Shown here piece after piece: positions 2,709 to 10,075 of a stretch of DNA of 64,000 nucleotides. A program made the position numbers and the translations under genes. A model generated the notes under the pieces. It was not told the DNA's origin and made no database searches. It saw nothing but the letters and a program-made list of their open reading frames with translations. The stretch comes from Kallipyga gabonensis (GTDB taxonomy: Bacteria > Bacillota > Clostridia > Tissierellales > Peptoniphilaceae): assembly GCF_001286805.1 (NCBI RefSeq), contig NZ_CXYV01000002.1:124001-188000 (forward strand), written 5' to 3'. Each line of letters opens with the position of its first letter. The stretch's first letter is position 1.

Positions 2709-3045
2709 CCCTGATAATCCGGAGAATTTCAGGAATATCAGGGTCCGGAGCCCTGACAATTTGCTAAATCAAAAGAGAATCAGGGGCGAAAAAAACCTGA
2801 TAATTGGCCAAATGGCAAGAAAATCAGGGCATAAAACCCTGTCAATTTGCTGAATTATAAGAAAAACAGGGTGAAAAAAGGCCCTGCTTTTTTGTCAGAT
2901 TGTGAAAATATCAGGGGCGGAAACCCTGATAATCCATAAAATTTTAGGAATATCAGGGCCCGGTACCCTGACAATTTTACAGGCCAGCGAATATCAGGGT
3001 CCAGAGCCTGCACCATGAACCACCGCTGCAAGCGGCTTGCCCTTC
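2709..3045. repeat. multi-hairpin repeat element, copy 1 (seven ~43-bp units)
   Basis: Seven units of about 43 bp run from 2709 to 3010. Each unit is CCCTGATAAT, then 15-18 AT-rich bases, then ATATCAGGG, then a linker of about 7 bases, so CCCTGA and TCAGGG alternate and can pair across either the spacer or the linker. A GC-rich end with the small hairpin CCGC-TGCAA-GCGG (3021-3033) follows. The linkers match in order those of copy 2 at 9655-10075 read on the other strand, so the two are diverged inverted copies of one element. No coding frame is conserved across it. It fills most of the 550-base gap between the deaminase and malic enzyme genes. Confidence 0.8.
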
Positions 3046-3120
3046 CCTGGGAAGCCCCGGATCCCACTATCGGTCAGGGCGGTGCTACTCTGGAAAACCT
3101 CATGACCCCGCCCCGGCACA

Positions 3121-3162
3121 AAAAAAGGGAGAAGTGCAAGAATTTGCACTTCTCCCTTTTTT
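3121..3162. terminator. bidirectional intrinsic terminator
   Basis: A perfect 19-bp stem (3121-3139 with 3144-3162) with a 4-base loop, bounded by A6 on the left and T6 on the right, so it can stop transcription from both sides. On the minus strand it closes the malic enzyme operon; on the plus strand it is the first terminator after the deaminase gene and repeat copy 1. Confidence 0.92.
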
Positions 3163-3180
3163 CAAACAGTGGAGGTGATC

Positions 3181-4368
3181 CTAGTTGGTCTTCCGGGCCA
3201 GGCCCTGATCGATGGCGACTTGGGCGACGGCCTTGGCGACGGCATCGGGGACCTTGGGGTCGAAGGGTGAGGGGATGACGTAATCTTCCCTGATTTCCTC
3301 ATCCGGAATGATGTCGGCGATGGCCTGGGCAGCAGCCAGCTTCATTTCTTCGGAAATAGCGGAGGAGTGGACGGAGAGGGCACCCTTGAAGAGGCCGGGG
3401 AAGGCCAGGACGTTGTTGACCTGGTTGGGGTAGTCCGACCGGCCGGTTCCCATGACCCGGGCTCCGGCTTCCTTGGCGACATCGTAGTCGATTTCGGGAT
3501 CGGGGTTGGCCAGGGCGAAGATGATGGGGTCCTTCTTCATGGACCGGACCATGTCGGCCGTAATCTTATTGGGGACGGAGACGCCGATGAAGACATCGGC
3601 CTTGGCCATGGCCTCTTCCAGGGTCAGGTCTTCGGCATCCTTGTTGGTTTCTTCGGCCAGCTCCTTATATAAGGGGTTGGTGTAGGAATCCTTGTCCTTG
3701 CGGTTGAGGATACCGGTGGACCGGAAGCCGTAGATGTTGGCCACGCCCAGCTTGTTAAGCATGCGGAGAATGGAGGAGCCGGCAGCACCCAGGCCGGACA
3801 TGACCACGGTCAGGTCCTCCCACTTCTTCCCCACCAGGGTGAGGGCGTTGATGAGGCCGGCGATAACCACGATGGTGGTCCCATGCTGGTCGTCATGGAA
3901 GACGGGGATATCCAGTTCCTTTTTCAGTCGAGTCTCAATTTCGATGCAGCGAGGGGAGGAGATGTCCTCCAGGTTGATCCCGCCAAGGCCGGGGGCCAGG
4001 AGTTTGACGGTTTTGATGATTTCCTCGGTGTCCTGGGTGTCCAGGACCAGGGGGATAGCGTTGACATCGCCGAAACGTTTGAAGAGGCAGCACTTGCCTT
4101 CCATGACCGGGAGGGCGGCCTCGGGACCGATGTTGCCCAGACCCAGAACGGCGGATCCATCGGAGATAACAGCAACGGAATTCCCCTTCCAGGTGTAGTC
4201 ATAGACAGCTTCCTTGTCATCCGCGATGGCCCGACAGGGTTCGGCAACACCGGGAGAGTAGACCAGGGAGAGGTCCTCCTTGCTTTCCAGGGGAGCCTTG
4301 AGTTCCACGTTCAATTTCCCCTTGAGCTCCTTATGGAGGGCAAGGGCTTGTTCAAAGACATCGTTCAT
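3181..4368 (-). CDS. malic enzyme, NAD(P)-dependent, short (prokaryotic) type
   Basis: Oxidatively decarboxylates malate to pyruvate with reduction of NAD(P). The protein has 395 residues, the usual length of the short bacterial malic enzymes. Catalytic Tyr37 sits in VYSPGVAEP, Lys92 in MEGKCCLFK, and the metal ligands in LEDI (E134/D135) and HDDQHGT (D160); a Rossmann motif SGLGAAGSS lies near 191-199. It is the last gene of the run aspartase, fumarase, malic enzyme, which makes a complete path from aspartate through fumarate and malate to pyruvate. The start ATG has GAAAGGAAAT upstream. Coenzyme preference cannot be read from the sequence with confidence. Confidence 0.94.
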   Translation of the reverse strand: MNDVFEQALALHKELKGKLNVELKAPLESKEDLSLVYSPGVAEPCRAIADDKEAVYDYTWKGNSVAVISDGSAVLGLGNIGPEAALPVMEGKCCLFKRFGDVNAIPLVLDTQDTEEIIKTVKLLAPGLGGINLEDISSPRCIEIETRLKKELDIPVFHDDQHGTTIVVIAGLINALTLVGKKWEDLTVVMSGLGAAGSSILRMLNKLGVANIYGFRSTGILNRKDKDSYTNPLYKELAEETNKDAEDLTLEEAMAKADVFIGVSVPNKITADMVRSMKKDPIIFALANPDPEIDYDVAKEAGARVMGTGRSDYPNQVNNVLAFPGLFKGALSVHSSAISEEMKLAAAQAIADIIPDEEIREDYVIPSPFDPKVPDAVAKAVAQVAIDQGLARKTN

Positions 4369-4431
4369 GAGATTTCCTTTCTATCCGGGGCCGGTCAGCC
4401 CCTATCATTCCGGGAGAATGGTATCCGGCAA

Positions 4432-9376: not shown

Positions 9377-9470
9377 TATTTCCTCCTGGTATAAAATAGT
9401 CTCCCCCGTTTCCCCACGACTTTTCCCATCGGAAAATCGGTAGAGCAATTCTCAGAATAGCCATAGGTTT

Positions 9471-9499
9471 ATTATAACAAGCCAAAGGTTTTCCTTCAA
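9471..9499 (-). promoter_or_regulatory. sigma-70-type promoter for EF-G-like/aspA/fumC/mae operon
   Basis: On the minus strand TTGAAG (9494-9499) is followed after 17 bases by a perfect TATAAT (9471-9476). It lies 95 bases upstream of the EF-G-like start, and no other good promoter is seen between the genes of this run. Confidence 0.7.
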
Positions 9500-9540
9500 G
9501 GTGTGATTGTGGATAAATTTCTGTGTGGCCCCGGCAGGCA

Positions 9541-9582
9541 AAAACCCCCGAAATTCAGACCATGAGGTCTACTTTCCGGGGG
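9541..9582 (-). terminator. intrinsic terminator upstream of the EF-G-like operon
   Basis: A two-part stem, CCCCCG...CGGGGG outside and AGACC-ATGA-GGTCT inside, followed on the minus strand by TTTT. It ends whatever transcript crosses repeat copy 2 from the right and insulates the promoter at 9471-9499. No gene lies between it and the glpK terminator at 10233-10299. Confidence 0.65.
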
Positions 9583-9654
9583 CTTTGACTAGGTAAGAAA
9601 CTATGCACCGGCATTATATCGTTCACAAAGATTCAATGCCTAGAATCTCTTCAA

Positions 9655-10075
9655 CCCTGATTATCTTGCAATTTGGCGAATTGTCAGGGCTCCGGGCTGC
9701 TCCGAGCCCTGATATTCTTGAGATTAAACAATTTGTCAGGGTTTCAGACCCTGATAATATTACCATTTGCCAAATTAACAGGGCCCTTTTTCACCCTGCT
9801 ATTCTCAAGGTTCTCCAATTTGACAGGGTTTGAAACCCTGATATTCTTGCCCATCAGCTTTTTTGTCAGGGCTTTTTTCGACCCTGACATTTTTGAGAAC
9901 CTACGAGTTGACAGGGCTCCGGACCCTGATATTCTTAATATTCTCAAAATAATCAGGGCTCATCACTCGATTCCGCTATGACTCAGGGAAACCACGCCCT
10001 GGCTGGAGCCCGATTTCGCTACTAGCCAGGGAAGCCATGCCCTGGGCGGGGCTTGATTTCACTGCTGGCCAGGAA
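9655..10075. repeat. multi-hairpin repeat element, copy 2 (inverted relative to copy 1)
   Basis: Seven ~43-bp units from 9655 to 9958 with consensus CCCTGATATTCTTG, about 8 variable bases, AATTTGTCAGGG and a linker, then two further GC-rich units of the same period (TCAGGGAAACCACGCCCTGG and its neighbour) to 10075. Read on the minus strand it corresponds to copy 1: linkers GGGTTTC..CCC, GGGCC.TTTTTCACCC, GGGTTT....CCC, TTTTTTCG.CCC and GGGCTCCGGACCC appear in the same order. It occupies most of the 920-base gap between the EF-G-like gene and glpK, where no gene is visible. Confidence 0.8.

Follow-up and report, generated by a model that had tools for sequence, protein, structure and literature searches.

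The question raised by this locus is what the two arrays of short inverted repeats that bracket an aspartate catabolic gene block of Kallipyga gabonensis are, and what they may do. They lie in a window of 64,000 nucleotides (contig NZ_CXYV01000002.1, positions 124,001 to 188,000; G000:C2:124001-188000 in our numbering, G000 being the window genome of 1.62 Mb in two contigs, C1 and C2). The original prediction had taken them for inverted copies of a multi-hairpin element with units near 43 bp, and had considered three meanings: a non-coding element resembling a miniature inverted-repeat transposable element (MITE), a structured RNA, or protein-binding arrays. We found that the arrays belong to a family of interspersed mosaic arrays restricted to the Kallipyga/Murdochiella lineage (two small genera of anaerobic cocci associated with humans), and that each consists of seven units which are not uniformly 43 bp long: a 35-bp unit alternates with a linker mostly of 6-10 bp. 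They are best read as phased sites on duplex DNA, comparable to bacterial interspersed mosaic elements (BIMEs) and Neisseria intergenic mosaic elements (NIMEs), in which each unit would be a putative protein-binding site, about one per four helical turns. We favour this reading tentatively, at somewhat less than an even chance. Of the three meanings proposed, protein-binding arrays are thus preferred, a structured RNA finds little support, and a MITE-like element is somewhat less likely.

The unit was defined on 91 arrays comprising 650 units, 19 of the arrays being two-unit pieces (including separate pieces of the Murdochiella loci L092 and L105); one mismatch per arm was tolerated and lengths of 33-37 bp were accepted. 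Its constant part is CCCTG-N25-CAGGG. The length is exactly 35 bp in 605 of the 650 units, and both five-base arms are perfect in 546. Two classes were recognised, A (CCCTGA...TCAGGG) and G (CCCTGG...CCAGGG). Units deviating from 35 bp number 20/309 in Kallipyga and 25/341 in Murdochiella, whereas the linkers are flexible. The 252 Kallipyga linkers measure 7 bp (92), 8 (67), 10 (61), 6 (16), 9 (13), 5 (2) or 14 (1), and the 307 Murdochiella linkers 7 bp (168), 9 (70), 8 (63), 6 (5) or 10 (1). Their usual order is 7,10,7 or 6,10,7 in Kallipyga class A and 8,8,8 in Kallipyga class G, and several Murdochiella class-A arrays repeat the order 7,7,9,7,9. The eight-unit class-G array of K. massiliensis (G001) contains seven real units and one spurious unit.

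Four groups of arrays with different linker sets nevertheless reach near-equal mean periods of 42.7-43.2 bp. When an array has five units or more, the mean is 43.06 bp for Kallipyga class A (31 arrays), 43.20 for Kallipyga class G (8), 42.71 for Murdochiella class A (18) and 42.75 for Murdochiella class G (4). The spread of the array means is 0.232 in Kallipyga (37 arrays), as compared to 0.588 for random draws from the pooled linkers, and 0.120 in Murdochiella (22 arrays), as compared to 0.247; in both genera, 0/2000 simulations reach the observed value. In class-A arrays, two linkers of at least 9 bp never follow one another (0/150 and 0/232 pairs), and the linker order was more even than within-array permutations (p<0.1) in 10/17 Murdochiella class-A arrays and in 0/3 Murdochiella class-G arrays. 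Forty-three bp corresponds to about four turns of negatively supercoiled DNA. A rigid 35-bp unit combined with mixed linkers and a mean period near 43 bp is what one would expect if protein were bound in phase along duplex DNA.

In the mechanism that we propose, the arrays would act as double-stranded DNA, in the form of non-coding mosaic repeats. Each 35-bp unit could be one site for a sequence-specific protein touching two inverted half-sites (about CCCTG[A/G]Y) held rigidly 25 bp apart, and the mixed linkers would place the units, on average, near four turns of negatively supercoiled DNA. Bound protein would then line up on one face of the DNA and could polymerise or loop it. Array length probably changes through recombination between units, and copying of arrays from site to site may have preceded the divergence of the Kallipyga species. 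Their job could be chromosome organisation or cell-cycle signalling.

Between species, the ends of the units are conserved while the interiors drift. Of 13 inter-species array comparisons, 11 passed 75% identity (L061/L055 and L007/L086 were dropped), several of them concerning a single site present in three genomes. Identity was found for 581/599 end bases (97%) and 424/480 sub-terminal bases, as compared to 826/1020 interior bases (81%) and 330/394 linker bases, a contrast that is somewhat inflated by one-mismatch arm detection. The sites themselves are old. At least 17 were found in G000 (14 on C2 and 3 on C1), and of the 14 that were compared, 11 are matched by an array locus of a congener on both flanks and two on one flank. 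With regard to the 11 two-flank sites, six keep a shared class in K. massiliensis and five are class A in G000 and only class G there. At the first window site, the class-A array is absent from K. massiliensis, which carries a class-G array with seven clear units instead, and the congener G002 holds both classes. Given that G002 holds both, this is most simply explained by a composite ancestral array from which different parts were lost. Unit number and class were both found to vary at single sites between genomes. An array also lies near a gene for an NCS2-like permease, presumably a purine permease, in both Kallipyga and Murdochiella (L087, L110, L096, L106), and the site is perhaps older than the genus split.

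The arrays are located between genes. None of the 51 array instances in 36 Kallipyga loci, which are 79% coding, overlaps a called gene by more than 60 bp (calls by a codon-usage caller; some instances are counted in two overlapping loci). Convergent junctions are enriched, representing 14/34 array junctions and 20/174 others (p 1.1e-4, with orthologous junctions counted once per species). At tandem junctions, Kallipyga class-A arrays show no preferred orientation, six lying with the gene and eight against it. When dnaA is taken as the origin (best DnaA match at C2:371 kb in G000 and at C1:414 kb in K. massiliensis), the dnaA-distal half of the main contig holds 0/14 sites in G000 (p 5e-4; class G among the matches listed, to 519 kb) and 3/24 in K. 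massiliensis (p 2e-3), with 42% expected in each. The tests leave out the three C1 sites of G000 and the second-contig loci of K. massiliensis, and they are not independent, as the two genomes share sites. That sites are depleted at a distance from dnaA in both genomes hints at a role in chromosome organisation or the cell cycle. Array orientation found no support as a marker of replication, the G000 arrays at 349.7 and 503.8 kb flanking dnaA in the same orientation.

The exact pattern was found in 7/130 genomes of the family, namely 3/3 Kallipyga (g1), 3/5 of the genus Murdochiella (g23) and G010, and in the same seven of the 249 genomes of the order. Genomes identified by the pattern scan include Kallipyga massiliensis ph2, the metagenome-assembled genome SUG1733, Murdochiella massiliensis SIT12 and Murdochiella sp. 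Marseille-P8839. The match in G010, the only one among the other 243 genomes of the order, is an unrelated-looking repeat. When three mismatches were allowed, 7/130 family genomes were again obtained, a single match in G115 replacing G010. The same pattern written backwards, used as a control, gave no match in the exact scans and one match (G114) with three mismatches. The array-free genomes of the genus Murdochiella are G112 and G114. Completeness is 81-90% for G000, G001 and G002, and 99% for the three Murdochiella genomes with arrays. Matches in Parabeggiatoa, Parabacteroides, Anaerolineae, Clostridiaceae, Sphaerisporangium, Chloroploca and Myxococcales were set aside, as they appear to be near-identical tandem copies or other repeats.

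The titles and opening lines of abstracts of the literature searched contained no account of these arrays, and a term search of the accessible text of the K. massiliensis genome paper (PMC3910704) gave no mention of them. The closest likeness may be sought among known dispersed repeats. The NIME/dRS3 elements of Neisseria are also mosaic arrays located between genes, in which short modules with inverted ends are separated by other sequence; according to the accessible part of PMC3898611, dRS3 is ATTCCC-N8-GGGAAT and the RS elements measure 30-160 bp. The present ends are CCCTG/CAGGG rather than ATTCCC/GGGAAT, N25 is rigid and the linker flexible, the period is near 43 bp, and the phylum is another one. 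The repetitive extragenic palindromic (REP) sequences and BIMEs of E. coli and others are likewise extragenic and arranged in regular arrays of similar-sized units, and protein-binding roles are stated for BIMEs in the part of PMC2817692 that we consulted. The ends CCCTG/CAGGG are not among the REP sequences in the table of that paper as far as it is shown. Furthermore, the stems described here are not kept by complementary change past the sixth base, and a cognate REP-associated tyrosine transposase (RAYT) is lacking as judged by the Y1 family, which was found in 0/6 array genomes. BOX of pneumococcus is also composite, its inner modules vary in number, and it is over-represented where genes converge (accessible part of PMC3049150); two sequence classes at the same sites and a fixed 35-bp unit set our arrays apart from it, the boxA/boxC ends not entering into this comparison. 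The sites of Noc (NBS) and SlmA (SBS) are dispersed palindromes under-represented in Ter regions (accessible part of PMC4726725), a trait that the arrays of two Kallipyga genomes seem to share, but the Noc and SlmA sites are single short palindromes (14 bp for Noc) and not long arrays, and M. vaginalis shows no clear depletion. CRISPR was discarded as a candidate because constancy is limited to the five-base ends, and the interiors of different units are related to each other; no search for cas genes was made.

Could the units be hairpins rather than sites on duplex DNA? Chains of stems, whether in a structured non-coding RNA, at RNA 3' ends or as extruded hairpins of single-stranded DNA, would serve in termination, in mRNA stability or as a regulatory RNA, an explanation that we consider quite unlikely. 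The convergent gene ends would suit it, and the predicted RNA folds lie far below those of shuffled sequences on both strands (z -7.8 to -10.0); however, strong fold energies do not decide the matter, since they follow from the complementary ends. Selected stems predict covariation at the bases adjoining the constant arms. Positions 6-30 do covary (pooled, 0.63 paired as compared to 0.43 expected, z 12.5), mostly as A-T in class A and G-C in class G; inside arrays, z is 3.7 in Murdochiella and -0.6 in Kallipyga, and by class the values are 0.53 as compared to 0.55 in Kallipyga A and 0.63 as compared to 0.59 in Murdochiella A (z 2.4). A matched base at 6-30 fits the site of a symmetric dimer and a sixth base pair of a stem alike. 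Further in, no pairing excess was found at 7-29 (pooled, 0.46 as compared to 0.45, z 0.8; inside arrays, z -1.4) or, inside arrays, at 8-28 (z 0.5), and this absence of support beyond base 6 counts against a selected stem. A modest excess at 7-29 and 8-28 does exist in Kallipyga G, a small class, but it is equally present across linkers. Kallipyga A shows an excess at 15-21, and Murdochiella A an excess at 12-24 and a deficit at 8-28. Among 3250 arm pairs, 106 are changed, of which 101 on one side and five on both (1.8 expected); four of these five are complementary, and all five lie in units that begin or end an array. The covariation therefore lends RNA hairpins little support. The balance of orientations at tandem junctions also speaks against them, as does Rfam, which at the gathering threshold gave no array match in the window or in L001-L008, the window yielding only a tRNA and a tetrahydrofolate (THF) riboswitch.

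The main rival to phased binding sites is that the arrays are tolerated selfish repeats, MITE- or satellite-like and devoid of host function, which would be moved by a transposase, expanded by unequal recombination and kept where they do the least harm. We regard this as a serious possibility, though a rather doubtful one. Dispersed copies with a common linker order, many with a common right-flank module, would be accounted for, as would the variation of unit number and class at one site and the enrichment at convergent junctions, a placement which, in the case of BOX, RUP and SPRITE, has been described as a possible sign of mobile parasites (accessible part of PMC3049150). One presence/absence site, L005, bears a GGGGTG direct repeat at both edges of a difference of ~400 bp, but this fits insertion and deletion by recombination at the direct repeat alike, and terminal inverted repeats were not seen by eye at the junction. 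Selfish repeats are less easily reconciled with ends that are conserved while interiors drift, with the strict 35-bp length and near-constant mean period, or with the 13/14 compared sites that are common to a congener on at least one flank. Y1 transposase (PF01797), the only family searched, is present in 0/6 array genomes, whereas 14/31 searched genomes match at E<=0.001, and an origin of the REP/RAYT type is unsupported by this result. Well-known bacterial interspersed repeats have been explained as RAYT-mobilised palindromes or as MITEs mobilised by insertion sequences (IS); the first explanation is not borne out for these arrays in the one test applied, and the second suits them only in part. 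A further explanation is that they are recombination or integration targets, as dRS3 is for the filamentous phage of Neisseria, an integrase using short inverted ends round a 6-10-bp spacer. CAGGG-N7-10-CCCTG is indeed laid out like dRS3 (accessible part of PMC3898611), and at G000:C2:112-124.5 kb the synteny with K. massiliensis breaks near an array, where the site is not an empty one. We nonetheless find this very improbable: it is the long interval that is rigid and the short spacer that varies, opposite to what a recombinase core would show; viral contigs contain no exact match to the two-unit pattern; the block between the window arrays keeps its order in 3/3 genomes; and an IS3-family element is the sole insertion seen to interrupt an array. 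This element lies in a class-A array of G000 (L150 ~763-2600, C2:503.8-505.6 kb), which continues beyond it.

Several observations weigh against the reading as phased protein-binding sites, among them the strong folds, the covariation at 6-30 and the ambiguity of the matched base described above. Because of the detection tolerance, ends and length look better conserved than they are, and the 650 units include a few spurious ones at the ends of arrays. As for Kallipyga class A, the linker order is more even than within-array permutations (p<0.1) in 0/31 arrays. The arrays share ancestry, so that period and linker order are not independent and descent is a common cause. L005 is the one compared site that is empty in both congeners, and both site retention and convergent placement also fit a tolerated parasite. 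M. vaginalis does not show clear depletion, 3/9 sites lying in the far half among those listed. The search for a partner gave no candidate: the copy number of ParB_N is independent of arrays in the 28 genomes searched (one-two in array genomes, one-three in others), SlmA not being searched for, and no linked factor appeared among the 14 largest clusters of the 311 proteins encoded within 2.5 kb. These clusters consist of spurious open reading frames (ORFs) derived from the arrays, parts of ABC transporters, the NCS2-like permease and apparent orthologues. An additional ParB/Noc is not supported as the partner, as the ParB_N counts show no pattern.

With regard to the window itself (Table 1), the two seven-unit arrays are in opposite orientation, as the original prediction had stated: they align inversely with 74% identity over ~258 bp (E 2.7e-37). 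Their linker orders correspond, in agreement with the proposal that they are diverged copies of one multi-unit sequence. More copies are present in G000 and in two congeners, so that neither condition named by the original prediction as refuting it holds, and the partial third copy that had been noticed at 45104 was found to comprise two units. A right-flank module like the one beside this copy was seen beside many class-A arrays, in the flanks of loci. The two-unit four-arm pattern has 15 matches in the window, the maximum being 0 among 100 dinucleotide shuffles. The arrays do flank the aspartate block at the positions proposed, but the block is not a unit of the element, given that copies adjoin many other genes and that its order and orientation are unchanged in both congeners, G001 and G002 (3/3 genomes). 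No sign was seen, in the window genome and both congeners, of arrays defining or mobilising the block, and the bracketing looks incidental.

Table 1. Features of the window discussed in the text (positions are those of the 64,000-nucleotide window)
Feature	Position	Strand	Remarks
ComEB / dCMP-deaminase-like flanking gene	2113..2628	+	TIGR02571 175.7 bits, under cut-off 219.45
Class-A array 1, seven units	2709..2999	+ (A-rich strand)	linkers 7,9,7,10,7,7
Units of array 1	2709-2743, 2751-2785, 2795-2829, 2837-2871, 2882-2916, 2924-2958, 2966-2999	+	six of 35 nt, final unit 34
Perfect inverted repeat, 19-nt arms, A/T-run ends	3121..3162	.	terminator-like; beside array 1, outside the array
Bracketed block, all four genes	3181..9448	-
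Malic enzyme-like	3181-4368	-	profile match
Fumarase-like	4432-5799	-	profile match
Aspartate ammonia-lyase	5792-7318	-	profile match
EF-G-like	7319-9448	-	profile match
Class-A array 2, seven units	9655..9958	- (A-rich strand)	unit 9655-9689, then 17-bp linker; other six at 9707-9958, linkers 7,10,7,10,7
Class-G remnant, two units (CCCTGG...CCAGGG)	9997..10074	.	adjoins array 2
Nested perfect inverted repeats, 19- and 33-bp arms	10119-10300		with GCAAATCCGAAGGATTTGC; beside glpK
glpK	10303..11820	-	profile match; far side of array 2 from the block
tRNA	25687-25760
THF riboswitch match	27101-27198	+	RF01831, 40 bits
Partial class-A copy, two units	45104..45181	+	between divergent genes
Right-flank module	45182..45260	+	GAGTTCAGA...GCCACCGCCGCAGGCGGCTTGCC; limits approximate

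Other features were noticed near these arrays and elsewhere in the family. Parts of the nested inverted repeats beside glpK match several other places in G001 and G002 and represent a second dispersed hairpin family. An ORF of 206 amino acids lies between the EF-G-like gene and array 2 in G002 (L149:9029-9649) and in G001, and is absent from the window genome; it has no NCBIfam match at 1e-10, and we take its product to resemble Rpn/PD-(D/E)XK nuclease-type proteins. In two Murdochiella species, a common array (L092:6125-6681 and L105:4763-5319) consists of six unit pairs with a 96-bp period and 19-bp spacers. As 96 is a multiple of three, a coding repeat was considered for the six-fold array of L092, and was rejected because the reading frames are interrupted.

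Going beyond phased binding sites as such, the arrays could be the DNA half of an unrecognised system for chromosome organisation or division timing, in which a protein would polymerise on phased units, the sites would lie away from the terminus, and two classes of the same geometry would be interchangeable. We consider this extended version unlikely. Should a protein that binds the units be discovered, these little-studied cocci would gain a new chromosome protein that binds arrays; should there be no such protein, the arrays would illustrate clearly how sequences can turn over in the manner of satellites in a small bacterial genome.

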